Shown in pieces: positions 2,247 through 63,994 of a DNA stretch of 64,000 nucleotides (its first letter is position 1; the number at the start of each line of letters is the position of its first letter). Under the pieces are notes generated by a model, which worked only from the letters and a program-made list of their open reading frames with translations, was not told the origin of the DNA and did not search any database. The stretch is from Ignavibacteriota bacterium (lineage in GTDB: Bacteria > Bacteroidota > Ignavibacteria > Tepidaquicellales > Tepidaquicellaceae). The DNA lies in contig JACREY010000017.1 of the NCBI GenBank assembly GCA_016218085.1, forward strand, positions 150,187 through 214,186. Reading direction: 5' to 3'. The translations under genes and the position numbers were made by a program.

Positions 2247-4328
2247 TTATTTCACGAGAACCATTTTCTTAACTTCCGTATAGCTTGGTGTTACGAGTCT
2301 GTAGAAATAAACACCGCTCGATACTTTCTGACCGTTTCCGCTGACACCTGTCCAGTCGGTTGAATATTTACCTGCACCCATTTTCTGGTTTATGAGTGTA
2401 ATCACTTCCCTGCCCATCATATCGTACACTTTAATCGAAACATTTTCATTCTTTGTAATTGCAAAATTAATCTTCGTAGTCGGGTTGAACGGGTTCGGAT
2501 AATTCTGTGACAGTTCATATCTTAACGGAACTTCATTGCTGATATTCTGTACACCAACTGCATACTGATATGAAGTTAACAGTACCTGTATTGTATAGAA
2601 CGGATTGTGCATTCCAAGGCTTCCGTCGTTGTTGATATACTGATAGTTCCAGTATGCTTTTCTTAAGTTGACATTATTGGAATCCCTTGCAATTAGACCC
2701 CAACTTACCGAATCAACTCCGACCGGGGGTAATTTTATTCTTAAATTCCTGATACAACCTTCAACTTCTTTCTGCCAGGGTTCGACAACGTTATCGCCAT
2801 CATAATCTTCAGGAGCCAGGAAGTCATCAAAGCTGGTCTTTCCGGGGTGACAGCCAACGCATCCGGTCATATGGTCATAATTTGTAGCTGAATAGTGCAG
2901 GTTCATGCTATGACCACCGACTTTATCTCTCGTAACTGTTCCTGTATCTGTTGTCGCTGCCATATGACATCCAACGCAAACACCTTCTATATTTTTGTGC
3001 GAACCGCTGATATACGGAACACCGCCGAATGATGCAGCGTTTTTACCAAGAACTACGTCACCCTGTGTTGATCCGTGGGGACCCCAGGTAGATGTAAGAC
3101 TTCCGCCTGCTACAACATACCATACAGGATTTCTTCTTGCTTTATGGCAGTCAAGACAAACTTTACCTGTTCCGGCATTCGGATATGTAAATCCACCGGA
3201 TAAAGTATCGCTTCCTGCTATTCTTGTTCTTAAGCTATATTCATTTGTACTACCATGCGGGTCGTGGCAAGATGCACATCCGATACCCTGCTGGTCAGCA
3301 GTTGTAATATTCGGTGGTAAAGCCAAGCCTTTTGTGAATCCCATATATGTATATCCATCGTGGCATCTGTTACAGTCGCTGAATGTGTTTCTTGAAGAAG
3401 CTGTAACTGTTCTACCTTCAAATAACGGATCTGCATGCAAACTGTTTTCCCACTGAGCATATCTGTTATGTCTCCAGGGTTCATCGTGGCACTGGCCGCA
3501 TTTTCCCGAACTGACAGACATATCCATTTTGTTTGTATCGGTAGTTGAAGCGTGTTCGCTTCCCGGACCGTGGCAGCTTTCGCATCCGATTGTTGCAAGG
3601 TTAACGAGGTTCGGATAAACTGTTCTTAATGAATCCCATTTTCCGGGATGCGGAGGACCTGACCAGACCCATCCGAGTGTTCTGGCTTTATCGTCAAAAC
3701 CACCGTTTACAGCATATTTATTATGGTCATAACCTGTTGTGTGACATTTTATACAGCTAATACCGTAGTATGCAGCACCTGAATCGATTTCATACCTGAA
3801 AATATTGGCATGTCCGCTGACTTTCCATTTGTTAAAGATTGTCTGGAAAGCAGGCATTCCGTTGTGGCAAGTCATACATTTCGGAAACTCACCCGTAATA
3901 TTATAAAAACCACCGACACCGATGAAAGTACCGCAATAGATATTCATTGTGGTATCTTTTGAGCCTGTGGAAGTAGTAATAGAGAGCTTAACATTATAAG
4001 TACCTGTGCTATCGGCTAAAAATTTATACCAGCCCAAGCTCGGGATACTTGTAAATGTAGCATTTGACCCGGTTGGTTTAGACAGGAAAGTCCAGGCCTG
4101 TGTTTGGATTGAAGCCGTATCACCGAAATTAAATGCCTGTAAATAGACATAGGTCATTTTCGGTACGACTTTCATACCAGTAGTAACACTCGAATCCGCT
4201 GTCAGTGAAGGTGTTGAAAGCAATTCGTGAGGTGTCACATTTTTTATGAATATTTTGGCTCTCGGAGCACCATAAATAACAGAAGCGCTCATCACCAAAA
4301 CAACTAACAATGTAAGAATTTTTTTCAT
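2247..4328 (-). CDS. T9SS-exported nonaheme c-type cytochrome
   Basis: 693 residues. There is a signal peptide (about 1-20), then an Ig/PKD-like beta region (about 30-140). A heme region follows (about 150-505) with nine CXXCH sites: CMTCH, CIKCH, CESCH, CGQCH, CNRCH, CASCH, CLDCH, CVGCH, CVGCH. A post-heme helical part containing HNPFYTIQVLL resembles the end of NrfA-like multiheme cytochromes. The C-terminal 85 residues or so are a T9SS sorting domain (NYPNPFNPTTKI ... KKMVLVK). It should be secreted, heme-loaded in the periplasm, and passed through the type IX system to the cell surface or medium. It is divergent from the sigma-54 activator and cytochrome series and has its own sigma-54-like promoter and terminator. 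The substrate is unknown; a terminal extracellular electron carrier is the best inference. Confidence 0.9.
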   Translation of the reverse strand: MKKILTLLVVLVMSASVIYGAPRAKIFIKNVTPHELLSTPSLTADSSVTTGMKVVPKMTYVYLQAFNFGDTASIQTQAWTFLSKPTGSNATFTSIPSLGWYKFLADSTGTYNVKLSITTSTGSKDTTMNIYCGTFIGVGGFYNITGEFPKCMTCHNGMPAFQTIFNKWKVSGHANIFRYEIDSGAAYYGISCIKCHTTGYDHNKYAVNGGFDDKARTLGWVWSGPPHPGKWDSLRTVYPNLVNLATIGCESCHGPGSEHASTTDTNKMDMSVSSGKCGQCHDEPWRHNRYAQWENSLHADPLFEGRTVTASSRNTFSDCNRCHDGYTYMGFTKGLALPPNITTADQQGIGCASCHDPHGSTNEYSLRTRIAGSDTLSGGFTYPNAGTGKVCLDCHKARRNPVWYVVAGGSLTSTWGPHGSTQGDVVLGKNAASFGGVPYISGSHKNIEGVCVGCHMAATTDTGTVTRDKVGGHSMNLHYSATNYDHMTGCVGCHPGKTSFDDFLAPEDYDGDNVVEPWQKEVEGCIRNLRIKLPPVGVDSVSWGLIARDSNNVNLRKAYWNYQYINNDGSLGMHNPFYTIQVLLTSYQYAVGVQNISNEVPLRYELSQNYPNPFNPTTKINFAITKNENVSIKVYDMMGREVITLINQKMGAGKYSTDWTGVSGNGQKVSSGVYFYRLVTPSYTEVKKMVLVK

Positions 4329-4373: not shown

Positions 4374-4390
4374 TACATATTTTATGCCAA
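4374..4390 (-). promoter_or_regulatory. Sigma-54-like promoter for the exported cytochrome gene
   Basis: Read on the minus strand the site is TTGGCATAAAATATGTA. TTGGCA matches the -24 element of the sigma-54 consensus (YTGGCACGRNNNTTGCW), and the -12 element TATGTA is imperfect (GT in place of GC). It ends 46 bp upstream of the ATG at 4328. A TGTGG-TTTTT-CCCA site lies about 50 bp further upstream (4439-4455). The match is seen; use by RpoN is inference. Confidence 0.45.
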
Positions 4391-4540: not shown

Positions 4541-4641
4541 GAAAAAGAACAAAATTTTTAATTTCTATGATTATATTTGCAATTTCCATACCATAAAAAA
4601 GGCTAATAATGTAGAATTTTTTAGCATTAAGGAAAATAATG

Positions 4642-4694: not shown

Positions 4695-6050
4695 ATGGAA
4701 AATTCGGATTTTAAAATACTGGTAGTTGATGATGAAGCAAATTCAACTCAAATTCTGAGGAAAGTGCTTAATAAGAAAGGATACTCTGTAAGTGAGGAAA
4801 ACGACAGTGTAAAAGCAAAGAAGCTGATTAACGAAAATTTCTATGATATAATAATTTCTGATCTTCAGATGCCGGAAGTTGACGGACTGGACCTGTTGAA
4901 GGAAAAGCCGGTTGACAGCATATTTATAATGATTACCGGATACGGCTCGGTAGCAACAGCAGTTGAGTCAATGAAAAACGGTGCATTCGATTACATCAAT
5001 AAGCCGTTTAACCTTGAGGAATTTATCATTAAAGTAGAAAAGGCAGTTGATAAAATCAAAATGACAAGAAGAATACAGGACCTGAAAACCATAATCGAAG
5101 ACAATTATCCGTTTAAAAATATAATCGGCACGAGTAAAAAGATGAACGAGGTTTTTGATTTTATAAAAAAGATTTCAAAAGTGAACGTAAATGTTTTGAT
5201 AGAAGGTCAAAGCGGAACGGGCAAGGAACTTGTTGCAAGGGCAATCCATCAAAACAGCGACAGAAAATCACAGCCTTTCATTGCGATAAACTGCAGTGCA
5301 ATCCCTGAGAACCTGCTTGAGAGCGAGCTTTTCGGGCACACGAAGGGAGCTTTTACCGGTGCATTCGAAACACAAAGAGGGGTTTTCGAGCAGGCAGACG
5401 GAGGAACGCTTTTCCTGGATGAAATCGCTGAAATGCCTTACAATCTTCAGGCAAAACTTCTTCGCGTAATCGAAAACTGGGAAATAAAATCTCTCGGAAG
5501 CGATAAGATAAAAAAGATTGACGTTAGATTACTTTCGGCGACAAATCAAAACCTGAAAGAATTCATCAAGCAGAAAAAGTTCAGAGAAGACCTATACTTC
5601 AGGCTTTCGACTTTTTCAATAACATTACCGCCTTTGAATGAAAGAATATCCGATATTCCTCTGATTGTGAACCATTACCTGAAGATATTATCCGTAAAGT
5701 TTGACAAAGAATTTTCGATAACTCCATTAGCTTTAGATGTGCTTATGAAGCACAAATGGAATGGAAATGTCAGAGAACTTGAAAACGTTTTGGAGCAGGC
5801 GGCGATAATCACAACAAATAACAGTATAGATTCAAAACACTTCAGCTTTCTCGACTTTTCAGATAACCTTGAAGACTGTCTTAAAAGTGCAGTGGATATA
5901 AGCCTTGATGAGCTTGAAAAAAGGTACATTCTAAAAGTACTTGAAGAAAACGAATGGAACAAAGCCAAAGCCTCACAGATTCTGAAAATTGACAGAAAAA
6001 CACTTTACAAAAAAATAAAGGATTATAGCATCGTAGAAAAGCAGGATTAA
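4695..6050 (+). CDS. Sigma-54-dependent response regulator (NtrC family)
   Basis: 451 residues from the ATG at 4695. The frame is open upstream to 4440, but that part is low-complexity, contains hairpins and matches nothing; the receiver starts immediately after MENSDF. Residues 1-120 are a complete receiver: VVDDE acidic pocket, ISDLQMP phospho-Asp, ITGYGS, and NKPF with the conserved Lys. Residues about 140-375 are the AAA+ sigma-54 activation domain with Walker A GQSGTGKE, an intact GAFTGA loop and Walker B TLFLDE. The C-terminus is a Fis-type helix-turn-helix ([20 protein letters not shown]). Lying between two cytochrome units that each have a sigma-54-like promoter, it is the likely activator of both. 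No partner histidine kinase is in the window. Confidence 0.93.
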
Positions 6051-6114: not shown

Positions 6115-6131
6115 TTGGTATAATTATTGCA
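6115..6131 (+). promoter_or_regulatory. Sigma-54-like promoter of the cytochrome gene series
   Basis: TTGGTATAATTATTGCA has the sigma-54 elements at exact spacing: TTGG, 8 nt, then TTGCA. That gives invariant GG and GC ten bases apart. The middle of the -24 element (CACG) is not conserved. Transcription would start near 6141, about 15 nt before the first gene. An inverted repeat (6051-6067) and the activator gene lie directly upstream. Confidence 0.6.
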
Positions 6132-6156
6132 CTTCTATATTATATATATTTAGGTG

Positions 6157-6528
6157 ATGGATTTTAAAATTCACATATTTTGCGGGACATCTTATCTGTG
6201 CAAGCTGATAAGAAAGACTTTTGTCAGGGAACCATATACGTTTAACTGTACAGAAGTTACCGATAAGTTAAACGATAAATCGGGAAAGCTGGATTATACT
6301 CCCGATTGCATTATCTTTGACAAGGATATTGCCGGAGATTTCAAGGAAGAAATAATCAATAAGCATTCTGATTCCAGCATTATTCTTCTGCCTTCCCTGA
6401 ACGAGATTGAAGCTCTTGCAAATTCAAAAAATGTGTTTCAGATTTCAGAACCTTTTAAATTAAGCGAATTAAGCGAAGTATTAAAAGAAATTTATCATAA
6501 TAAACAAATTGAAGAATCCATTAATTAG
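6157..6528 (+). CDS. Degenerate stand-alone receiver-like protein
   Basis: 123 residues from ATG 6157 (GTG at 6154 in frame is an alternative). The layout is that of a CheY-like receiver: beta strand FKIHIFCG, a central DCIIFDKDI with Asp where the phospho-Asp would be, SSIILLPS, then SEPFKLSELSEVLKEI in place of the usual KPF segment. The acidic pair of strand 1 is missing and the conserved Lys before PF is Glu, so classical phosphorylation is doubtful. It is the first gene after the sigma-54-like promoter, and the next cytochrome gene starts 20 bp inside it. A regulatory or partner-binding role is likely but unproven. Confidence 0.7.
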   Translation: MDFKIHIFCGTSYLCKLIRKTFVREPYTFNCTEVTDKLNDKSGKLDYTPDCIIFDKDIAGDFKEEIINKHSDSSIILLPSLNEIEALANSKNVFQISEPFKLSELSEVLKEIYHNKQIEESIN

Positions 6529-8440
6529 AAAAAGCACAAGACTATTAATAATTTCATTGTTATTTTTGGCAGTAATAATCTCTGCTTTATTCACATACCA
6601 GAGAACAAAAGCCAAAGGTACGGATGACTGCCTGGTCTGCCACGAAGACAAGGACCTGGTAATGGAAGTAAACGGAAAAAAGATTTCTCTTTTTGTTAAC
6701 GGAAAGGAATTCAAGAAATCGATGCACGGTGCAATTGAATGCACCGATTGTCATCAGAATTACAAAGCGGAAGAGTTTCCGCATAATCCTAAAAAGCAGG
6801 AAATTGACTGCAAAGCGTGCCACGATAACGTTAAGTCGGAGCCGGGTAATGTGCACAATAACGTAAAATGTTACAGCTGCCATTCTGCTCATAATGTAAA
6901 ATCCGCGAAGGAGTTGTCGAAGAACCAGACCGATAATTGTCTTGGCTGCCACAAGAGCAAAAATGTACAGTCTTTCAAAACCAGCATACACGATAAAAAG
7001 AACGTGAAATGCAGCGACTGTCATCAGGGCGGTCATTCAGTAAAGAAGATTACAAAGTCGGAATCGATGAACAGCTGCGGCAAGTGCCACGCAAAAGACC
7101 AGAAAGATTTTTCCAACAGCGTTCACCAGGTAGTATTAAGACAGGGTAACTCGAAAGCACCTACCTGCATAGACTGTCACGGCTCGCACAAAGTCAACAG
7201 CAGCAAAATAGACATCGAGTCCCAGGGATGCCTAAAATGCCATCTGGACGAAAAGATGTTCCCCGGTGACGGAAAGGGTTCGACAAAATTTATTTCCGAA
7301 TACAAAACGAGCATACATTCAATTATACAGAAAAACGGAAAACAGGCGGCAGGATGCACGGACTGTCACGGGAACCATATGATACAACAAAACGACCCAA
7401 GCAGACCATCAACAACAAAGTCAAAAATTTTTGAAACCTGCGGAAAATGCCACGGAGATCTTGTAGAAAAATTCAAGGGTTCGATGCACGGTCAGGAAAT
7501 GCTAAAGGGAAATGACAAAGCCCCGACCTGCGCGACCTGTCACGGTGAGCATAACATTAAATCGGTTTCATTATCAGATGAGTTTTCGAAAATCAATCAG
7601 GTTGACTTATGCCTTAAATGCCATCAGGAACAAAAGCTCCCGCATAAAAATTACAAGGGAGAAGACGTGTTGATAAGCAATTACAAGGACAGTTATCATT
7701 ACATCGCTTTAAAAAACGGTAAGAATGCGGCAACATGTTCAGACTGTCACGGCAGCCACGAAATGAAGAAAGTAGATGATCCTGATGCAAAAATAAACAG
7801 AAAGAATATTCCGAAGACCTGCGGTCAAAGCGGGTGTCACACAAAGCAATTGAATGATTTCACAGGAAGCATTCACGAGACATCACTGACACAGAAAAAC
7901 AGTCCGGACGCACCAAACTGCAGTTCGTGTCACGGCAATCACCAGATCGCAAAAAAGGATGATGTGAATAACAGGATAGCAAGCAGTAAAGGTCTTGTTC
8001 AGTTATGTTCGGACTGTCACAATTCGGTCGAGATGACGCAGAAGTACAACATACCGACAGGAAGGACCGACTCATACCTGAACAGTTTCCACGGACTTGC
8101 CGTTCGCGGAGGATCAAAGGTTGCGGCAAACTGCGAAAGCTGCCACGGATATCACAACATAAGGCCTTCATCGGATTCATTATCGACAATAAGCAAAAAG
8201 AATCTGCCTGAAACCTGCGGGAAATGCCATCCCGGTGCAGAGCAAACATTATTCAATACAAAAATTCACATTACTGATTCGTTGTCGGAATCCCCGATGC
8301 TGTACTGGATAACAAGAATTTACATCATATTGATAGTTCTAACAATAGGCGGCATGGCATTGCACAACATATTAGACTTAATTAAAAAAGGAAAAAAGAA
8401 AAACAAACAGAATGAAAACAACGGAGAAGATGGAAAATAA
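6509..8440 (+). CDS. Membrane-anchored 19-heme c-type cytochrome
   Basis: 643 residues. The start is TTG at 6509, overlapping the receiver-like gene by 20 bp. The first internal Met lies beyond the N-terminal membrane segment (LLIISLLFLAVIISALF), so an upstream non-ATG start is needed. Eighteen CXXCH sites (CLVCH near residue 41 to CGKCH near 573) plus one CX4CH (CGQSGCH) run through the protein, interleaved with distal His in repeats such as SIH/SMH and CxxCHGxH. A second membrane helix (IYIILIVLTIGGMAL, about 600-620) and a basic tail follow. It should be periplasmic and tethered at both ends to the inner membrane. The gene overlaps the following cytochrome b gene, which suggests a quinol-oxidising complex. 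Confidence 0.92.
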   Translation: MKNPLIRKSTRLLIISLLFLAVIISALFTYQRTKAKGTDDCLVCHEDKDLVMEVNGKKISLFVNGKEFKKSMHGAIECTDCHQNYKAEEFPHNPKKQEIDCKACHDNVKSEPGNVHNNVKCYSCHSAHNVKSAKELSKNQTDNCLGCHKSKNVQSFKTSIHDKKNVKCSDCHQGGHSVKKITKSESMNSCGKCHAKDQKDFSNSVHQVVLRQGNSKAPTCIDCHGSHKVNSSKIDIESQGCLKCHLDEKMFPGDGKGSTKFISEYKTSIHSIIQKNGKQAAGCTDCHGNHMIQQNDPSRPSTTKSKIFETCGKCHGDLVEKFKGSMHGQEMLKGNDKAPTCATCHGEHNIKSVSLSDEFSKINQVDLCLKCHQEQKLPHKNYKGEDVLISNYKDSYHYIALKNGKNAATCSDCHGSHEMKKVDDPDAKINRKNIPKTCGQSGCHTKQLNDFTGSIHETSLTQKNSPDAPNCSSCHGNHQIAKKDDVNNRIASSKGLVQLCSDCHNSVEMTQKYNIPTGRTDSYLNSFHGLAVRGGSKVAANCESCHGYHNIRPSSDSLSTISKKNLPETCGKCHPGAEQTLFNTKIHITDSLSESPMLYWITRIYIILIVLTIGGMALHNILDLIKKGKKKNKQNENNGEDGK

Positions 8441-9218
8441 ACACGAGAAGAAATATTTAAGGATGACCCTTAATGAACGCATACAGCATTTCCTGCTGCT
8501 TTCGAGTTTTATCACTCTGGTAATAACCGGTTTTGCATTAAAATACCCAGAGGCAGTGTGGGTAATCTGGTTCAGAAAATTATTCGGTGAAAATACTTTT
8601 GAACTGAGGGGAATTGTGCACAGGATAGCCGCGGTTGTAATGGTTGCAGATTCACTTTATCATATTTTTTATGTGATTTTTTCCGGGCGCGGAAGAAAAC
8701 TAATAATAGATTTATGGTTTACAAAAAAAGATTTAACGGATGTAATCGGAACAATGAAATACTATATTGGAAAATCTGATACCAAGCCGAAATATGCAAG
8801 ATTCAGCTATATAGAAAAATCAGAATACTGGGCTCTTGTATGGGGAACAGTTGTAATGACCGTTACAGGAGTGTTTTTATGGTTCAATAATTTTTTCCTT
8901 CCGATAATATCAAGCTTCGGAATGGAAATTTCCACGGCAATACATTTTTACGAAGCAATTCTTGCATCACTGTCGATAGTGGTATGGCATTTTTATTTTG
9001 TAATATACAATCCGGATGTTTATCCGCTCAACAGGACATTTATAACCGGATACATGACACGGGAAGAGATGGAGCACGAGCACCCGCTTGAACTTGAAGA
9101 AATAGACAAAATGGAAGAAGAGATGAAGTCCGAAACGGAAGAGGAATCGATTAAGAAGGATGCAAAATCAGTATCAGCAGAACCAGAGAGTAAAACTACG
9201 GAAGAGAAAAAGATTTAG
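8412..9218 (+). CDS. Integral membrane cytochrome b (formate dehydrogenase gamma / Cbc-like)
   Basis: 268 residues. ATG at 8412 overlaps the upstream gene by 29 bp; ATG at 8430 is an alternative. Four membrane helices are visible (FLLLSSFITLVITGFAL, IAAVVMVADSLYHIFYVIF, YWALVWGTVVMTVTGVFLW, AILASLSIVVWHFYFVIY). They carry His residues suited to two b hemes (IQHF, VHRIA, IHFYEA, VWHFYF). The tail after residue 215 is charged and acidic. The pattern is that of prokaryotic cytochrome b561/formate dehydrogenase gamma proteins. Placed between two multiheme cytochrome genes, it most likely takes electrons from menaquinol and hands them to the 19-heme protein, as in the Cbc complexes of Geobacter (analogy). 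Confidence 0.88.
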   Translation: MKTTEKMENKHEKKYLRMTLNERIQHFLLLSSFITLVITGFALKYPEAVWVIWFRKLFGENTFELRGIVHRIAAVVMVADSLYHIFYVIFSGRGRKLIIDLWFTKKDLTDVIGTMKYYIGKSDTKPKYARFSYIEKSEYWALVWGTVVMTVTGVFLWFNNFFLPIISSFGMEISTAIHFYEAILASLSIVVWHFYFVIYNPDVYPLNRTFITGYMTREEMEHEHPLELEEIDKMEEEMKSETEEESIKKDAKSVSAEPESKTTEEKKI

Positions 9219-9271
9219 GTTTTTGTATTTTATCGGAGGTTATACAATAAATCAATTTTAATAATATTGTT

Positions 9272-11308
9272 ATGGAAAACGAACAGGTACCTGAGAAGAC
9301 AAAGAAACGCAGGTTTTTTAAAAACGTCTTCGGTTTTAAAAGGTTTCTTCTTTTCACCGGAATATATTTCATGCTGTTTATAATAGTACTGGCGGGTGCA
9401 GCTGAATATACTTCCAGGCCGAGCTTCTGCCCGACCTGTCATTACATGGAAACGTTTTACCAGAGCTGGAGGACATCTGCGCACAACAAGGTTGACTGTG
9501 TTGAATGTCATTTTGAACCGGGACTGACAGGAGTAATCAAAGGAAAACTGAACGGCCTTGTTCAGATTGTCAGTTATGTTTCTTCTTCCTACAAGAAAAG
9601 AAAACCCTGGGCGGAGATTCCGGATAACACCTGCGCGCGTTCAGGATGCCACGAAAGACAGGCAATACAGGATACAACTTATGATTTCAAAGGAATTGCG
9701 TTTAACCACAAACATCACCTCGGAGAACTTAAAAGAGGCAAGACGCTTAAATGCACAAGCTGTCACTCGCAGATTGTTCAGGGTACCCATATTGAAGTTA
9801 CATCATCAACTTGTTTTAATTGCCACTTTAAAAAGTCCGCAGATCCGGAACACAAATATGACAAGCTGGCAAATTGCACAACTTGCCACAACTGGGAAAA
9901 AATGCCGAAGGAGCAAATGGCAAATTTCAGATATGACCACGGCAATGTAGTTAAGAATAAAATAGACTGTTACAGCTGCCATACCAACACAGTTGCGGGA
10001 AACGGAGAAGTAGGAAAGGAAAGGTGCTTCCAGTGTCATTTTGAAACCGAGAGGCTCGAGAAGTATGATGATACCGAATACATGCACAGCACGCACATCA
10101 GCAAACACAGCCTGAGGTGTTTCAACTGCCACTCGAGCATTCAGCATAAAATTCAGAAAATCGATCCTCAGAGTCCGCCGGACTGTATAAGCTGTCACAG
10201 CAACTCGCACAGTTCCCAGGTGAGCCTGTATACAGGAGAAAACGGATTCAATACTGAAAAAACACCGAGTGTAATGTTCCTGAACGGGATTAATTGCAAG
10301 GGCTGTCATATATTCCACGAAACAAGCAAAAACGATATCAATACTTCAAAATCCAAAGGTACAGCCTGCGACATGTGCCACGGTAAAGGATACGACAAGC
10401 TCGTCGGACAGTGGAAGAGTGCTGCGGAAAAGAGACTAAAGGAAATATATTCCATATATAATATAGCTAACGGGCAGGTGAAAAACTCAAAGGCAAACAA
10501 TAAGCCCGAAGCCGAAAAACTGATGAGGGATGCTTATCACAATATCAGGATAGTCGAAGTAGGAAAAAGCGTGCATAATATTCAGTTTGCAGATAAACTG
10601 TTAATGGCCGCATACGGACTGATGAAGCAGGCAATGAATTTAATTGGTACAAGCACAAAACTGCCGGATTTCAAATCCAGTTCCGAATTCGTCCCCAATG
10701 AATGCTACAACTGTCATTCGGGAATACAGGAAATTTCGGTAAGAAAGTTCGATATGAATTTCTCGCACAATCTCCATATAGTAAAGCAGAAAGTGCCTTG
10801 CGACAAGTGCCATTCCAATGCAAACAAACATGGAGAATTGATATTAAGCAAGCAAAACTGCAACAGCTGCCATCATTCTTCAAGCAAGACAAATGAAGCC
10901 TGTGCAAAGTGTCACACATTCCAGACTCAGGTTTACACGGGTTCATTTATGAACAAAAATTCCCCGGATATTATGAAGCAGGGAGGTGTCGGATGCATTG
11001 ACTGTCACGTAAATGCCGATAAACTATTCAAGCCCGACAGCAAGATTTGCCTTAAATGCCACGACAAAGGTTATGACCAGCAGATGGAAGACTGGAAAAA
11101 AGATGTAAAAACACTGTTGGCGGAAACAAATGCATTGATAAATGAGTTAAAAGGTACGGGATTGAATACAGAGCAACAGAATGAATTAAATGAAATTAAG
11201 AAAACTGTAAATCAGATAAGTTCATTCCCGAGTATATATGTACACAATTATGATTTAATCAGCAGCATACTGTCAGAAAAGAAAAAGAAACTTAAAAGTT
11301 TTAAATAA
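9272..11308 (+). CDS. NapC/NirT-like 18-heme c-type cytochrome
   Basis: 678 residues. A basic N-terminus (KTKKRRFFKN) precedes one membrane anchor (FTGIYFMLFIIVLAGAAEY). Next comes a NapC/NirT-like opening: SFCPTCHYME, FYQSWRTSAHNKVDCVECH and GLVQIVSYV. In total 17 CXXCH and one CX4CH (CARSGCH) are present. Hemes cluster at about 52-355 and 475-600, separated by a heme-free helical stretch (about 370-470) and followed by a helical C-terminus. NapC proteins pass electrons from menaquinol to periplasmic partners, and this looks like a NapC head fused to a long heme wire. The leader has TATCGGAGGTTATAC upstream of the ATG. It follows the cytochrome b gene by 53 bp. Confidence 0.9.
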   Translation: MENEQVPEKTKKRRFFKNVFGFKRFLLFTGIYFMLFIIVLAGAAEYTSRPSFCPTCHYMETFYQSWRTSAHNKVDCVECHFEPGLTGVIKGKLNGLVQIVSYVSSSYKKRKPWAEIPDNTCARSGCHERQAIQDTTYDFKGIAFNHKHHLGELKRGKTLKCTSCHSQIVQGTHIEVTSSTCFNCHFKKSADPEHKYDKLANCTTCHNWEKMPKEQMANFRYDHGNVVKNKIDCYSCHTNTVAGNGEVGKERCFQCHFETERLEKYDDTEYMHSTHISKHSLRCFNCHSSIQHKIQKIDPQSPPDCISCHSNSHSSQVSLYTGENGFNTEKTPSVMFLNGINCKGCHIFHETSKNDINTSKSKGTACDMCHGKGYDKLVGQWKSAAEKRLKEIYSIYNIANGQVKNSKANNKPEAEKLMRDAYHNIRIVEVGKSVHNIQFADKLLMAAYGLMKQAMNLIGTSTKLPDFKSSSEFVPNECYNCHSGIQEISVRKFDMNFSHNLHIVKQKVPCDKCHSNANKHGELILSKQNCNSCHHSSSKTNEACAKCHTFQTQVYTGSFMNKNSPDIMKQGGVGCIDCHVNADKLFKPDSKICLKCHDKGYDQQMEDWKKDVKTLLAETNALINELKGTGLNTEQQNELNEIKKTVNQISSFPSIYVHNYDLISSILSEKKKKLKSFK

Positions 11309-11383
11309 AAAGCATATATTCCGATAAAAAATATATTATTTTAAATAAAATATTATTATATTAATTTAATTAAAAAAACAACC

Positions 11384-11944
11384 ATGAGAAAGAAAGCTTT
11401 AATTTCAGGATTGATTCTTATTGTTGCCGCGCTGGTGATATTTTCCACCACGACGGTAAGCTCAAAAAATGCCGGAAGTTTCAAATATGTTGGCGTCAGC
11501 AAATGTGTAACCTGTCACAAGACAGAGGCACAGGGAAAACAGCAGGATATCTGGCAAAATTCACAACATTCAAAGGCTTTTAAAACATTACAGACGGAAG
11601 CCGCAGATAAAATTGCAAAAGACAAGGGATTCAACACAAAAGCAGCGGAAACACCACAGTGCGTAAAATGCCACGTTCTTGGCAAGGATATAGTTGCGGA
11701 TGAACTCGCAGAATCATTCAACAAGGAAGACGGCGTGCAGTGCGAAAGCTGCCATGGTCCCGGTTCTGAATACAAAGCTATGTCAATTATGAAAGACAAG
11801 CAAAAATCAATTGAAAACGGAATGAACCCGATATCAGATATAAACCAGCTCTGCACCGGATGCCACAATTCCGAAAGCCCGACCTTCAAGGATTTCAAGT
11901 TCGATGAAATGTGGGGAAAGATAAAGCACAATAAAGCAAAATAA
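11384..11944 (+). CDS. Tetraheme cytochrome c554-like protein
   Basis: 186 residues with an N-terminal signal or anchor (ALISGLILIVAALVIFSTTTV). Four CXXCH sites (CVTCH, CVKCH, CESCH, CTGCH) have the order and context of the cytochrome c554 family: YVGVSKCVTCH, then WQNSQHSKAF, then CESCHGPGSEY, then a final CTGCHNSE. Such proteins are soluble or anchored periplasmic carriers, so a shuttle between the inner-membrane complex and the outer-membrane conduit is likely. It lies 75 bp after the 18-heme gene and is followed by a strong terminator, which ends the first transcript segment. Confidence 0.9.
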   Translation: MRKKALISGLILIVAALVIFSTTTVSSKNAGSFKYVGVSKCVTCHKTEAQGKQQDIWQNSQHSKAFKTLQTEAADKIAKDKGFNTKAAETPQCVKCHVLGKDIVADELAESFNKEDGVQCESCHGPGSEYKAMSIMKDKQKSIENGMNPISDINQLCTGCHNSESPTFKDFKFDEMWGKIKHNKAK

Positions 11945-11953
11945 CAAGTTTTT

Positions 11954-11980
11954 CACACTTCCGGTTAATCCGGAAGTGTG
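11954..11980 (+). terminator. Terminator after the tetraheme cytochrome gene
   Basis: CACACTTCCGG (11954-11964) pairs perfectly with CCGGAAGTGTG (11970-11980) around a 5-nt loop, followed by AATATGTTTTTT. It separates the inner-membrane cytochrome genes from the porin group. Confidence 0.88.
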
Positions 11981-12016
11981 AATATGTTTTTAATATTTAG
12001 CGCTGTATTTATATAA

Positions 12017-12099
12017 TTCCCGGTTTTTCTTTCGGAGGAGAATAATCTTCCGGGAAAGATAAATTTCATCTCATTTCTGAATAAAACTTCAAATGAGAT
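12017..12099 (+). promoter_or_regulatory. Structured leader ahead of the porin gene
   Basis: Two hairpins precede the beta-barrel gene. TTCCCGG (12017-12023) pairs with CCGGGAA (12050-12056) and encloses GGAGGAGAA (12034-12042). ATCTCATTT (12068-12076) pairs with AAATGAGAT (12091-12099). Neither has a proper T-run. The GGAGGAGAA core is shared with the motifs at 2222 and 4524. Role unknown. Confidence 0.4.
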
Positions 12100-12148
12100 T
12101 ATATTAGTTTAGAAGCAATTTTTTTCTTTAAGAATAAAACTTATTTTT

Positions 12149-13453
12149 ATGAAAAAGTATTTTACCTCTTTTCTGCTGTTGTTGTTTCTGCTATCCGCTT
12201 CTTTTGTAAGATCGCAAACAATCAACGCCAGGTTCAGTACGTATTTTTATACCTGGAAAACACTTGATTCCGTTACTACAAGCGGCTCAGATACATATAC
12301 AGACCACATTAAAGGCTATCAGAATCTGTTATTTGACATTTCGTCAAAGAAATGGACATTTAATACCTTTATTCAGACGGATGAAGATGTGACAAACAAA
12401 ATCGGAAGGGGCTTCAGTTACAGGCTTTACAACATGTACATTAAGGGAACAAACCTTTTCGATGTTCTTGATTTAAAATTGGGAAGACAGTTCGTTGCCG
12501 CAGGGGTATACAAGGGCAATACGGACGGTTTATACATGAAAGTGAAACTCGGAAAGAATAAAGAGTATCAGGTTGTAGCATTCGGAGGCGAGCTTACACC
12601 ACTTAGCTATGAGGTTGACAAATATCCCAACATCCAGGATAACTTTTCATTCGGCGGACAGTTCCTTTATTACGGGGTTAAAGATTTATCAGTCGGATTA
12701 AGTTATGCGATGAAGAAAAGGAAAGTCGATTCTTATTATGCATTAAGACTGGATAATCTAGGAAATCCATATGAGATTCTTGTAGATTTAGATTCAAGGG
12801 CCGACCAGCTCGCAGGTCTCGATGTGAACTATTCCTTTATGAAAAAGCATAATTTCTACGGGAAAGCTTATTATGATGTTAACAGGATGAAACTTTCAAG
12901 GGGAGAATTCAATGCAAGCATAGCAGCAAATGACAAGCTGAGATTTTCCGCAGGATTTATTTACAGGGAGCCGCAAATCAGCTACAACACGATATTCTGG
13001 GTATTCACGCACAAGCAGAACCAGGAAATCGAGGGCGGTGTCGACTATCTGTTGAACAATAAAATCAATTTATTCGGCAGAGTAGCCAATGTTTTTTATG
13101 ACGGAGAAAATTCACTGAAGCTGCAACTTGGGGTTTCCGATTCCTGGTACAGTCTATCATTTGTAAAATACACAGGCTACACAGGGGAATCAGACGGATT
13201 CAACGGATTCATTTCACATGAACTCGTAAAGTCAAAGCTCGTGCTTTCAAGTAACCTGAATTATTCACGGTATCAGCTGGGCACTTATTCCACAGAAAAG
13301 CTGAATGCATTTGCAGGCTCGCTCGGATTCACGTACAGACCTGTGCCAAAAGTATCCATAGATGCCCAGGGACAGTTTATTACAAATGAGATTTACAAAT
13401 ACGATACAAGGTTTTTAGTGGGATTTAATTACTGGTTATTCAGTAAATTCTAA
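12149..13453 (+). CDS. Outer-membrane beta-barrel of the cytochrome conduit
   Basis: 434 residues with a clear signal peptide (YFTSFLLLLFLLSASFVRSQ). The rest alternates polar and aromatic residues in short strands (YNMYIKGT, LDLKLGRQFV, GLYMKVKL, YQVVAFGG, LFGRVANVFYDG) and ends with an aromatic C-terminus (VGFNYWLFSKF), the hallmark of an outer-membrane barrel. No CXXCH is present. It has the right context for the porin of a porin-cytochrome complex: tetraheme and 14-heme cytochrome genes lie on either side. Sequence relation to MtrB or OmbB is not obvious, so the conduit role rests on context. Confidence 0.82.
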   Translation: MKKYFTSFLLLLFLLSASFVRSQTINARFSTYFYTWKTLDSVTTSGSDTYTDHIKGYQNLLFDISSKKWTFNTFIQTDEDVTNKIGRGFSYRLYNMYIKGTNLFDVLDLKLGRQFVAAGVYKGNTDGLYMKVKLGKNKEYQVVAFGGELTPLSYEVDKYPNIQDNFSFGGQFLYYGVKDLSVGLSYAMKKRKVDSYYALRLDNLGNPYEILVDLDSRADQLAGLDVNYSFMKKHNFYGKAYYDVNRMKLSRGEFNASIAANDKLRFSAGFIYREPQISYNTIFWVFTHKQNQEIEGGVDYLLNNKINLFGRVANVFYDGENSLKLQLGVSDSWYSLSFVKYTGYTGESDGFNGFISHELVKSKLVLSSNLNYSRYQLGTYSTEKLNAFAGSLGFTYRPVPKVSIDAQGQFITNEIYKYDTRFLVGFNYWLFSKF

Positions 13454-13472
13454 CAGATAAATTTTAAATCAT

Positions 13473-14714
13473 ATGAAAAATAAAAAGTTTTATATTATCT
13501 TTTTAATCGGAATCTTCGCATTCCTTACAACCACTGCTTACATATCTTTCGATAAGGACATTGCAAGGAAATTCGATATTTATAAAAAGAATAATATTTC
13601 AGACAATAAAAAAGTTATCAAATTCGATCACAGTCTGCATATAAAAACTGCAGGGGCTCAGTGTAAAGACTGCCACGCAGGCGCACTTACATCTGTAAAT
13701 GCTGCGGATAATCTGAACCCGAAAATGAGCAACTGTGAATCCTGCCATGATGTGAAAGACGAAAAAACCTGTAATTTATGCCATTACGATAAAAATTACG
13801 GTAAACTGGTACCGGCAGGCAGAAATCTCATATTCTCTCACAAGTACCATATTGACAAGGGAAAACAATGCACGGACTGTCATGCCGACCTTGACAAGGT
13901 AAAATTCGCAAGTGATGTAAACACATCATTTCCAAGTATGGAAAGCTGTGCAACCTGTCATGACAGCAAAACTGCAGCCAGCAACTGCGAGGCGTGCCAT
14001 ACAAATCTGACGAAACTGACGCCCAAGACACATTTAAATTCAAATTTCCTGAACGAGCACAAAATAGCAAATATGACAGGAAATAATAACTGCATGATGT
14101 GTCATTCGGATAACTTCTGCCAGGCCTGTCACAGTGTATCAAAATACAGCGGCGAAAACACAACTAAGAACTTCTACGCACCATATTACACAAAAGAATC
14201 AGGTGTAAGAACCGACAGGTCTGCTCTTCAGAAGCTTTCGAGCATGCATACTTTGAACTACCAGTACACACACGGTCTGGATGCAACCCAGAGAAGTTTT
14301 GAGTGTAAAACCTGCCACGATCCAGTTGAATTCTGTTCATCCTGCCATAACAATCAGGGTAATCTTCAAACAGGATTTATTCCGAAGAGTCACAAACAGG
14401 CAGGGTTCACAACGTACGGAGTGCATACAGGAGGCGGTCTGCATTCACAACTGGCAAAAAGGGACATAGAATCCTGCGAATCCTGCCATAGTATTCAGGG
14501 CGGGGATCCGGTCTGTGTGAAATGCCATTTCGACAATACAGGCATAAAAGGAACGCATCCGAGGACACACGAATCGGGATTCCTATCTGATGAAAACGGA
14601 ATATGGCACAAAACGCAGGGAGCTGTTTGTTATGTGTGTCATACAGACCCGAATGCAAAACCGACAGGTATTGCAGGAATTGGATTCTGTGGCTATTGCC
14701 ATGGTGCTAAATAA
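13473..14714 (+). CDS. 14-heme c-type cytochrome
   Basis: 413 residues with an N-terminal signal or anchor (FYIIFLIGIFAFLTTTAYISF). Fourteen CXXCH sites run from CKDCH (about 63) to CGYCH at the very C-terminus (CGYCHGAK). Early ones are preceded by FDHSLHI and FSHKYHI, typical of the c7/c3-like modules where distal His precede the heme motif. The start is 19 bp after the porin stop, so the two are surely co-transcribed. It is the best candidate for the cytochrome inserted in or docked to the barrel. Confidence 0.9.
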   Translation: MKNKKFYIIFLIGIFAFLTTTAYISFDKDIARKFDIYKKNNISDNKKVIKFDHSLHIKTAGAQCKDCHAGALTSVNAADNLNPKMSNCESCHDVKDEKTCNLCHYDKNYGKLVPAGRNLIFSHKYHIDKGKQCTDCHADLDKVKFASDVNTSFPSMESCATCHDSKTAASNCEACHTNLTKLTPKTHLNSNFLNEHKIANMTGNNNCMMCHSDNFCQACHSVSKYSGENTTKNFYAPYYTKESGVRTDRSALQKLSSMHTLNYQYTHGLDATQRSFECKTCHDPVEFCSSCHNNQGNLQTGFIPKSHKQAGFTTYGVHTGGGLHSQLAKRDIESCESCHSIQGGDPVCVKCHFDNTGIKGTHPRTHESGFLSDENGIWHKTQGAVCYVCHTDPNAKPTGIAGIGFCGYCHGAK

Positions 14715-14738
14715 AGAAAAATAAATTTCTATAAAAAT

Positions 14739-15416
14739 ATGAATAAAACAATTTATAAGATTTTTTCAGCATCTGTACTACTGTTTCTCCTGTCGGTTGC
14801 AATAATACCGGGATGCAGCAAACAGGCAGATAACCTGGTAGTTGTTCCAACATCAAATGCAGAATCCTGTGCAATGTGCCACGGTACAGCAGAGCATCCT
14901 TATCCACCGAAGTCTTTGGCGGGAAATACTTTGCCGACACAGCAGGGAGTGGGAACTCACGAAGTACATATGGATAATGCATTAAGCCATTCCGCACCGG
15001 TTGCCTGCAGTGAATGCCATACACCTGTGAGCAGTTATTATGATCCGGGACACATTGGCAATGGCGACGGAATTGCGGAAGTAATTTTCGGAGCACTTTC
15101 AAAAACGAAAACAACCGGTTTTACTCCTAATCCCGTATGGAACAACTCAAACCAGACGTGCTCGAGTGTTTATTGCCACGGATACTTCAAAGGCGGCAAT
15201 TCAACTGCAACTGCAACGTTTACAAATCCGTCATCGGTTGTTTGCGGCTCCTGTCACGGAAATCCGACAACCGGCAATCCTAAACCCGTTACCACTCATC
15301 AATATTATCCGGATGAGTGCTGGTATTGCCACGGTAAAGTAATTGATTCGAACAACGTAATCATAAACAAGACCAGGCACGTAAACGGAGTTATTGACTT
15401 CAACGTTGAAATGTAA
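14739..15416 (+). CDS. Multiheme lipoprotein with CxxxxCH...CXXCH domain
   Basis: 225 residues. The signal ends in the lipobox IIPGC (Cys about 27), so the protein should be lipid-anchored. Heme sites are CAMCH, CSECH, CSSVYCH (CX4CH), CGSCH and CWYCH. The CX4CH-HGYF...CGSCHG arrangement matches the Geobacter-type CxxxxCH...CXXCH domain (TIGR01904, named from memory), common in outer-surface cytochromes. It starts 24 bp after the 14-heme gene and ends the porin group at a terminator. It is a likely outer-membrane cytochrome, with inner or outer leaflet orientation not decidable here. Confidence 0.88.
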   Translation: MNKTIYKIFSASVLLFLLSVAIIPGCSKQADNLVVVPTSNAESCAMCHGTAEHPYPPKSLAGNTLPTQQGVGTHEVHMDNALSHSAPVACSECHTPVSSYYDPGHIGNGDGIAEVIFGALSKTKTTGFTPNPVWNNSNQTCSSVYCHGYFKGGNSTATATFTNPSSVVCGSCHGNPTTGNPKPVTTHQYYPDECWYCHGKVIDSNNVIINKTRHVNGVIDFNVEM

Positions 15417-61681: not shown

Positions 61682-63994
61682 TTAAAACTGCAAGCTGAAT
61701 CCGCCTACCGGCATAAAAGCCCACTGGTAAACGGTTCCGACTTCGTTTTTATCCTTGTTCCAGAAATATCCGAAAACATTTTCACGATTATATACGTTTT
61801 GGAGTTCCATATATGCTGTAAGAGTTGCGGCTTTGAAATAAAATTTCTTATCCACTCTTAAATCAAGCCGGTGGTAATCAATATATCTCTCACCGTTGAA
61901 TTTATCCATATTATAAACTCCCCTGCCGAGCGATTTTGATTTTGCGTTATCAAACGGAGTGTAAGGCCTGCCTCCTGCATATTTGAACTTAATTCCAATT
62001 AGCCAGTCATCCGCAACCTGATAACCTGCAATTACAGTGAACTGATGAGTCGGATCGAATGCCGCAGGCTTTTCTCCGCCTGCAAGTGCCGTGAACCCGG
62101 ACTTTGAATATGAATAAGTGAGCAGTCCGTAAATTCCGTTACCCGTAAGTTTCTTCTGTAATGAAATATCCAGTCCCTTAATATCACCATAACCAGCACT
62201 TGTCGAAGCACCTACAAGATTAGGTCCGTAATTTGCTCCGCCGTCTATTAAAATGTACCTCGGGTCATCTAGGCTTACCGGATAGCCGTTATATACTTTA
62301 TGATAAATTTCAACTACTGCATTGAAAGAAGAGCTTAGCATGTGCTCTATTCCAAAAACATAATGCTCGCATTTAATGCTGTTCAGGTTTTTATTTTGAG
62401 AATTAGATGCCAGCCAAACATTTTCAGGACTCTGGCGGAAAATACCAAAAGATGCGTTAATAGAGGTAGTTGGTAATACTTTGTATGAAACACCGATTCT
62501 CGGAGAGAATTCTGATTTCAACCTGATGTAATCAAAATAATCGAACCTGCCGCCTACATTCACAATGATTTTTTCATTGAAGAGTTTACCCGTAAAATTA
62601 AGTGAAGAATAATACTTATTTGCATTTAATTTTGAACTAAAACGCAATTCAGGAATCGGATACCCTTCCGGTGTTGTGTCTGCTTTTGCATACATATCAC
62701 TTTTGAATATCAAATGTTTTCCGCCTGCACTGAAATTCATAAAAAGGTAATTACTCAGCTTGTAATTCAAATCGAATTTGAAGTTTGTTGTATTTTCATA
62801 TGAATCGTTAAAATATTCCCTGATACCTGTTTTTGAAAAAATTAAATCGTCATAATAATCGGTACGTGTATTTGAAACTACCGCCTGCATATATCCTTTG
62901 TTAAATAATCTCGTATAATTTAATCCGGCGGTGTAAGAGTTCGTCCTGTCATCTGAATCGTAGGGCCAGTCATTTACGGTTGTATTTTCATCGACCTTGA
63001 AATTTATTTTATCTATTGCCCCGAATCCAACTAGACTGAGAATGTTATTGTTGTCAAATTTATAATCAAGCTTCATATTTATATCCCAGTAATTCGGAAC
63101 TGCGGTCAGGCGGATTGCGCTTTTAAGCAAATCGAGATAACTCCTTCTGACCGAAAGAATATATGAGGATTTTTTCGAAATCGGACCTTCAAAAAGTCCT
63201 CCGAACCCTGCCATATTAAAATCAACATTGTTGATATAATTTGTTTTGCTCCCTTCCCTGAATTTAATGTCAACTACACTGGAAAGTTTATCGCCGTATT
63301 TTGAAATGAATCCGCCCGTATAAATATCGGCTTCGCGAATTAATTTGAGATTAATAAACCCGATTGGTCCGCCTGTTGTGCCGAGCGAGCCGTAATGGTT
63401 TATGTTTGGAATTTCAATACCGTCAACAAGAAAAAGATTTTCGGAAGGTGAGCCGCCGCGAACAATTAAATCATTTCTCTGGTCGTTAACAAGCGATACT
63501 CCGGGTGCTGTCTGAAGCATTCTGGAAATATCTTCCGCCGCTCCCGGTGCGCGCCTGACCTCTTCATAGTCGAGATTAAGTGAACTGACATTTACATCTG
63601 AATTTTTCTGGAAGTAATTTGCTTCTACGTTTATATCTTCCGTCGTAATATTTGTTGAGTTAAGCTCAACTACCACTACAACCGGTTTTGAAGAATAAAC
63701 AACTATATCCGATAAATTCTTTGGTGTATATCCAATATTCGATACTTCGATGCGGTATGTTCCGTAAATAAGTCTCTCGAATTTGAACTCACCATTTTTA
63801 TCGGAACCGGTTTTTAAATCGGTATTAATAATTTTAATTACAGCTCCTTCGATTCCCTTTTGAGTTTCATTATCAATCACCTTGCCATAAATTATACCGT
63901 TATCTTTATCATTAATATCATCTGCGTTTGAAATCCTGTAAAATAAAAACATAATCAGTACTGCTGTTATAATCCTCATTGTAAATTTTTCCAT
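61682..63994 (-). CDS. TonB-dependent outer-membrane receptor
   Basis: 770 residues. MRIITAVL near 63979 may be the true start, since the signal peptide core follows. A carboxypeptidase-regulatory-like domain (GKVIDNETQKGIEGAVIKI) precedes a plug domain (LNLDYEEVRRAPGAAEDISRMLQTAPGV, LIVRGGSPSENLFLVDGIEIPN) and a large barrel to the C-terminal Phe (GGFSLQF). No TonB-box or partner genes are clear. SusC-like size is absent (usually over 950), so it is a general TonB receptor for metal complexes or small ligands. Confidence 0.92.
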   Translation of the reverse strand: MEKFTMRIITAVLIMFLFYRISNADDINDKDNGIIYGKVIDNETQKGIEGAVIKIINTDLKTGSDKNGEFKFERLIYGTYRIEVSNIGYTPKNLSDIVVYSSKPVVVVVELNSTNITTEDINVEANYFQKNSDVNVSSLNLDYEEVRRAPGAAEDISRMLQTAPGVSLVNDQRNDLIVRGGSPSENLFLVDGIEIPNINHYGSLGTTGGPIGFINLKLIREADIYTGGFISKYGDKLSSVVDIKFREGSKTNYINNVDFNMAGFGGLFEGPISKKSSYILSVRRSYLDLLKSAIRLTAVPNYWDINMKLDYKFDNNNILSLVGFGAIDKINFKVDENTTVNDWPYDSDDRTNSYTAGLNYTRLFNKGYMQAVVSNTRTDYYDDLIFSKTGIREYFNDSYENTTNFKFDLNYKLSNYLFMNFSAGGKHLIFKSDMYAKADTTPEGYPIPELRFSSKLNANKYYSSLNFTGKLFNEKIIVNVGGRFDYFDYIRLKSEFSPRIGVSYKVLPTTSINASFGIFRQSPENVWLASNSQNKNLNSIKCEHYVFGIEHMLSSSFNAVVEIYHKVYNGYPVSLDDPRYILIDGGANYGPNLVGASTSAGYGDIKGLDISLQKKLTGNGIYGLLTYSYSKSGFTALAGGEKPAAFDPTHQFTVIAGYQVADDWLIGIKFKYAGGRPYTPFDNAKSKSLGRGVYNMDKFNGERYIDYHRLDLRVDKKFYFKAATLTAYMELQNVYNRENVFGYFWNKDKNEVGTVYQWAFMPVGGFSLQF

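Follow-up and report, generated by a model that had tools for sequence, protein, structure and literature searches.

A nonaheme c-type cytochrome with a type IX secretion sorting domain as a candidate extracellular terminal reductase in Ignavibacteria

OcwA of Thermincola potens and OmhA of Carboxydothermus ferrireducens are cytochromes that function as surface terminal reductases for extracellular electron transfer (EET) (PMC6703420, PMC7829351, PMC12203936), and porin-cytochrome clusters (PCCs) have earlier been reported from Ignavibacteria (PMC7399161). Cargo proteins of the type IX secretion system (T9SS) can be either anchored or released once their C-terminal domain is removed, and fluorescent proteins fused to T9SS tails are exported (PMC11285876). 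Here, we analysed a 64,000-nucleotide stretch of the genome of an Ignavibacteriota bacterium (assembly GCA_016218085.1, contig JACREY010000017.1; this stretch is referred to as the window), which encodes a c-type cytochrome with nine hemes and a C-terminal T9SS type A sorting domain, next to a putative porin-cytochrome conduit. Whereas known T9SS cargo consists mainly of hydrolases, adhesins and proteases, the cargo in this case is a multiheme cytochrome.

Sorting tail, heme domain and orthologues

The 693-residue product contains exactly nine CXXCH motifs, at residues 151, 192, 249, 277, 319, 351, 391, 451 and 490. Chance accumulation of the motifs was ruled out, as 20,000 composition-preserving shuffles of the protein yielded a maximum of two. 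The domain order was found to be signal peptide, immunoglobulin (Ig)-like beta domain, heme domain, helical segment and sorting domain (Table 1). The sorting tail, with the motif NYPNPFNP starting at residue 609, was recognised by TIGR04183 with an E value of 1.6e-11 (44 bits; cut-off 23) and by Por_Secre_tail with 32.8 bits (cut-off 27), so that the combination of nine heme motifs and a sorting domain in one protein, as described in an earlier note on this DNA, is borne out.

When modelled together with 16 other tails, the tail formed a seven-strand beta sandwich with a pLDDT (predicted local distance difference test) of 92, the top PDB match of which was P. gingivalis PorU (6za2); PorZ, the T9SS-bound RemA and NucA cargo tails and other Ig-like folds were matched as well. 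The T9SS core genes SprA (over cut-off), PorV and PorU were found in the 3.3 Mb source genome, with PorU adjoining PorV on contig C21, and at least 150 type A sorting tails are encoded there. GspD was not found by a search of this 98% complete genome. As the first 60 residues of the cytochrome are free of cysteine, there is no lipobox and, taken together with the GspD result, T9SS is the sole two-step export route detected. With TIGR04183 over its cut-off, a Sec signal without lipobox, the tail fold and the core genes in the genome, the protein conforms with T9SS type A cargo, which likewise carries a Sec signal, a YPNPFNP-type tail of ~80 residues and a beta-sandwich fold.

Comparison of a heme-domain profile with the PDB returned OcwA (6i5b) as the first match (E 7.6e-30) and OmhA (6qvm) as the second (E 2.2e-22), with NrfA and the octaheme nitrite reductases ranking after them. 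Eight of the nine motifs align with OcwA, while heme 2 lies between aligned pieces. Like OcwA, which it matches in profile alignment, the protein has nine hemes and C-terminal helices and is a proposed surface terminal reductase; the helices are predicted at residues 517-532, 553-568 and 576-590 in a low-confidence AlphaFold model. Unlike the window protein, OcwA comes from a Gram-positive host with no outer membrane to cross, and the aligned part of its 526-residue chain has neither an Ig-like N-terminal domain nor a T9SS tail. The heme domain of OmhA, a surface Fe(III) reductase, is homologous, but OmhA has 11 hemes and an S-layer setting and is devoid of a T9SS tail. The kinship with these two experimentally studied proteins of Gram-positive metal reducers is in keeping with the earlier suggestion that the cytochrome is the last carrier of an electron chain.

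With NrfA and the octaheme nitrite reductases, the protein shares the C-terminal half and the HN motif. Most NrfA proteins possess a CXXCK catalytic heme, and NrfA and octaheme enzymes have fewer hemes and are not known to be extracellular. Membership in the NrfA family was rejected, with PF02335 giving 20.7 bits (cut-off 24.1) and all nine motifs being CXXCH, without any CXXCK. Membership in the MtrC/OmcA group was likewise rejected, since TIGR03507 gave no match, PF22113 reached 29.7 (cut-off 30) and a lipobox is lacking. A separate NrfA-like protein is apparently encoded in the source genome (locus L165).

Across the orthologues, the number of conserved histidines outside the heme motifs is seven, compared with nine hemes. 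Suggestive only, this is in line with two hemes being possibly without a distal histidine, comparable to hemes 2 and 5 of OcwA, which have an open distal site (PMC6703420).

Orthologues of the cytochrome were found in 50 of 79 related genomes, representing 10 families. A few of them end at contig edges; all those with a complete C terminus keep the tail together with its invariant residues. In an alignment of 22 sequences, identity to the window protein was 31-62%, and nearly all sequences contain eight or nine CXXCH motifs. In two divergent orthologues (L061, L063), the first heme motif is replaced by CFCH. On the level of the phylum, the heme domain was detected in 66 of 395 genomes, 63 of which belong to Ignavibacteria, and the tail is present on the long homologues in 30 loci examined from this search.

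Homologues without the tail were also encountered. An acidobacterial homologue (L072) shares the Ig-like region, the nine hemes and the helices, yet has no tail. At locus L073, another bacterium encodes a tandem pair of equally tail-less homologues, one of them containing a TSP3 repeat. Shorter homologues with five or six hemes, a lipobox and no tail lie in the conduit cluster of, e.g., genomes G045 and G073, which do not encode the tailed nonaheme protein. These tail-less and lipobox-bearing homologues imply that the heme unit is paired with differing delivery devices, the T9SS tail being used in a T9SS setting. The T9SS address of the cytochrome is therefore well supported, considering the tail in all full-length orthologues, its absence outside the T9SS context or in the presence of a lipobox, the encoded machinery and the lack of a GspD match in the search. 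Further short lipoprotein homologues with five to six hemes were seen at L176:13257-14489(+), L179:6175-7347(-), L226, L230-L232 and L234, often beside the conduit; several have collagen-like GPxGPxG stretches after the lipobox, and L230 has three such homologues in a row.

Link to the conduit and sigma-54-type promoters

Divergently from the cytochrome gene, a cluster at positions 6154-15416 encodes five cytochromes with 18, 17, 4, 14 and 4 hemes, respectively, as well as a cytochrome b and a putative porin, which agrees with the neighbouring conduit mentioned in the earlier note. In its layout of putative porin, large cytochrome and lipoprotein cytochrome, this cluster resembles OmbB-OmaB-OmcB of Geobacter and MtrCAB of Shewanella. 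The nonaheme protein differs from these complexes in that the MtrC/OmcA family model does not match it and its tag is for T9SS in place of a lipobox. Since the putative porin had no match in Pfam or the PDB, its beta-barrel nature is proposed from position and conservation. The lipoprotein gene at 1375-2079 was considered as a conserved partner and discarded, because no homologue was found among the loci of relatives examined.

Counting the 79 related genomes as independent, cytochrome and porin were both present in 49, the cytochrome only in 1, the porin only in 10 and neither in 19 (Fisher p 3.8e-10); the respective counts by genus were 26/1/5/14 (p 6e-7). The nonaheme gene adjoins the conduit cluster or forms part of it, in varying order, in several genera as well as in one separate family (L034, L037, L039, L070 and others), with a position directly upstream of the porin gene in L037 and L070.

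A search of the window with the pattern TGGCAY-N5-NTG revealed a single minus-strand match, at position 4389, upstream of the cytochrome gene. Within 130 bases upstream, this pattern was present in 28 of 46 orthologues versus none of 349 other genes of the same loci, and a looser TGGYAY form was present in 9 of 9 homologues of the first conduit gene versus 12 of 589 other genes, where the pattern was picked after part of the data had been inspected and related genomes are not independent. The gene for an NtrC-type regulator sits between the cytochrome and conduit promoters, and in other genomes relatives of it adjoin either the cytochrome gene or the conduit; RpoN is encoded in the source genome. 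Judging from this -24/-12 element, RpoN and the adjacent NtrC-type activator, the nonaheme gene would be sigma-54-dependent. The same kind of promoter, as postulated earlier for both transcription units, was found in the form of sigma-54-like -24/-12 sites at 4389-4374(-) and 6116-6131(+), and the link to the conduit is well supported by gene presence, neighbourhood and promoter type.

Proposed export and electron route in comparison with alternative explanations

The nonaheme protein is probably an extracellular terminal reductase, OcwA-like and more distantly NrfA-related, which is exported by T9SS and receives its electrons from the conduit. The cytochrome would be expressed under sigma-54 control jointly with the conduit, carried across the inner membrane by Sec and given its nine hemes in the periplasm. 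As a folded holo-protein, it would then be moved over the outer membrane by the type IX system (SprA/PorV) via the C-terminal domain, and PorU would attach it to the surface or release it nearby. Electrons may pass from the NapC-like and cytochrome b proteins to the 17/18-heme and tetraheme carriers, from there to the porin with the 14-heme protein and the lipoprotein cytochrome, and on to the nonaheme protein, which may transfer them to Fe(III)/Mn minerals, electrodes, humics or partner cells. Export, heme-loading, folding and PorU processing we infer from the behaviour of known T9SS cargo, and the presence of the hemes during export, the attachment, the electron route and the acceptor are likewise put forward as proposals.

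Several points weigh against this explanation. In many genomes, the nonaheme gene lies apart from the conduit, and in 10 the porin is encoded but the cytochrome is missing, which means that the cytochrome is not an obligate conduit subunit. The lipoprotein cytochrome encoded at 14739-15416 could itself form the outer face of the conduit. The -12 half (ATGTA) of the cytochrome's promoter site is imperfect, and both the co-occurrence and the promoter counts treat related genomes as independent. Lastly, in the whole-protein AlphaFold model, which was built with five homologues, the heme region had a mean pLDDT of 40; because of this unreliability, the model was kept out of any claim on the fold.

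Among the alternatives, release of the cytochrome into the extracellular matrix, or its assembly there into larger conductive structures, in place of surface anchoring, is unlikely, yet it is the one that survives best. It would agree with the fact that T9SS cargo can be freed once its C-terminal domain has been cut off (PMC11285876) and with the presence of three different tailed multiheme cytochromes in the genome. On the other hand, anchoring is possible due to the encoded PorU sortase, and the sequence gives no sign of filament formation, a comparison with OmcS-type filament proteins not having been made.

It is rather improbable that the protein, while exported by T9SS, acts chiefly on soluble nitrogen compounds such as nitrite and hydroxylamine, or in detoxification, instead of reducing minerals or electrodes for the conduit. 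The heme domain does match NrfA and octaheme nitrite reductases as well, about two of its hemes may have open sites, and OcwA itself reduces hydroxylamine and, slowly, nitrite (PMC6703420). However, the nearest relatives of known structure, OcwA and OmhA, belong to the surface EET reductases, with NrfA being more distant, all nine motifs are CXXCH without a CXXCK catalytic motif, and the genome apparently has its separate NrfA-like protein; the strong co-occurrence with the conduit and the matching promoter type point in the same direction.

That the tail is a mere passenger, unrecognised or cut off in the periplasm, with the cytochrome serving as an ordinary periplasmic carrier, is very improbable, given that no computed result speaks in its favour, that tail and invariant residues are kept in every full-length long orthologue across many families, that homologues outside a T9SS setting or with a lipobox have no tail, and that the tail fold matches T9SS tails.

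Table 1. Features of the nonaheme cytochrome, its promoter region and the neighbouring conduit operon (window coordinates)
Feature	Position	Strand	Basis
Nonaheme c-type cytochrome gene with T9SS type A sorting domain; product 693 residues	2247..4328	-	Open reading frame list, Pfam, TIGR04183
T9SS type A C-terminal sorting domain, residues 609-693	2250..2504	-	TIGR04183; seven-strand model; PDB fold matches
C-terminal helical segment with invariant GxHN, residues 500-592	2553..2831	-	Profile alignment with C-terminal helices of OcwA/NrfA proteins
Nine-heme domain, residues 148-495	2844..3887	-	Pfam cytochrome families; homology to OcwA (6i5b) and OmhA (6qvm)
Heme 2 motif CIKCH, residue 192	3741..3755	-	Lost in 3 of 22 aligned orthologues
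Ig-like beta domain, N-terminal, residues 54-133	3930..4169	-	AlphaFold beta strands, fair confidence; conserved in homologue alignments
Sec-type signal peptide without lipobox, about residues 1-21	4266..4328	-	N terminus MKKILTLLVVLVMSASVIYGA, read from sequence
Sigma-54-type promoter TGGCATAAAATATGTA, -61 from nonaheme ATG	4374..4389	-	Pattern match; similar distance in orthologues
Second sigma-54-like site TGGTATGGAAATTGCA, -265, significance uncertain	4578..4593	-	Pattern match
NtrC-type response regulator (REC, sigma-54 AAA+, Fis helix-turn-helix), probable activator	4695..6050	+	Pfam
Sigma-54-type promoter TGGTATAATTATTGCA of conduit operon, -38	6116..6131	+	Pattern match
Small receiver-like protein, first gene of conduit operon	6154..6528	+	Homologues in relatives' loci
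18-CXXCH cytochrome, C-terminal membrane segment	6509..8440	+	Motif count, Pfam
Cytochrome b561-type membrane protein	8412..9218	+	Pfam
17-CXXCH cytochrome, NapC/NirT-like N terminus, probable quinol-linked carrier	9272..11308	+	Motif count, Pfam
Tetraheme cytochrome, c554 type	11384..11944	+	Motif count, Pfam
Putative outer-membrane porin of conduit, 434 residues	12149..13453	+	Synteny, co-occurrence
14-CXXCH cytochrome adjoining porin, MtrA-like position	13473..14714	+	Motif count, Pfam, neighbourhoods
Small multiheme lipoprotein (lipobox IPGC), probable outer-membrane conduit cytochrome	14739..15416	+	Sequence

Further tailed cytochromes and meaning of the finding

Two further T9SS-tailed multiheme cytochromes are encoded in the source genome. 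The one on contig C3 (L190:6639-8438(-)) is c554-like, has 599 residues and six CXXCH motifs, and is preceded by the sigma-54-like site TGGCATAATATTTGCG at -79; the one on contig C16 (L158:415-1815(-)) has 466 residues, seven CXXCH motifs and the sigma-54-like site TGGTATAAAATTTGTA at -63. The earlier note had proposed counting the multiheme proteins of related genomes that carry the sorting domain; this is answered in part, for the source genome, with three tailed proteins among ~12 multiheme proteins seen, a number which is based on searches with two Pfam models and may be incomplete.

A T9SS-tailed protein of ~270 residues with a single C(X)XCH motif was observed near the nonaheme gene in three loci (L036:6967-7782(-), L037:5684-6472(-), L066:10285-11091(+)), the motif being CSCH in L036 and L037 and CGGCH in L066. 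A Neomarinimicrobiota protein (L079:7470-10178(+)) contains 16 CXXCH motifs in an internal tandem duplication as well as a T9SS tail, indicating that the combination of a CXXCH-rich protein and a T9SS tail also occurs outside Ignavibacteria. At the far end of the window, a Kustd1514-type S-layer glycoprotein model matched 61682-63991(-) only weakly (E 6e-8), falling far short of its cut-off.

We somewhat favour the broader reading that T9SS delivers, as holo-proteins, surface cytochromes which form a sigma-54-controlled set throughout the class, with at least three types in the source genome. T9SS would then constitute a third general route, beside lipid anchoring and type II secretion, by which the outer face of an EET chain is assembled. 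The components are of known kinds. Within the open-licence PMC literature, no paper linking T9SS to multiheme cytochromes or EET was found; what appears to be new is the combination of an OcwA-like nonaheme reductase with a T9SS tail, class-wide and promoter-linked to a conduit.

Ignavibacteria occur on anodes and in iron-rich settings, and the passage of electrons beyond their outer membrane surface has not been worked out. If the proposed explanation is true, T9SS would be an undescribed export route for multiheme cytochromes with the capacity to transport cargo carrying nine hemes. Depending on the lineage, different devices, i.e., a lipid anchor, a T9SS tail or none, would have brought the OcwA-type reductase unit to the outside. 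CXXCH repeats together with TIGR04183 provide a simple sequence rule for surface cytochromes that would be missed by methods based on a lipobox or type II secretion. That an entire bacterial class has retained the tail suggests that these bacteria wire their outer surface in a manner not yet described.
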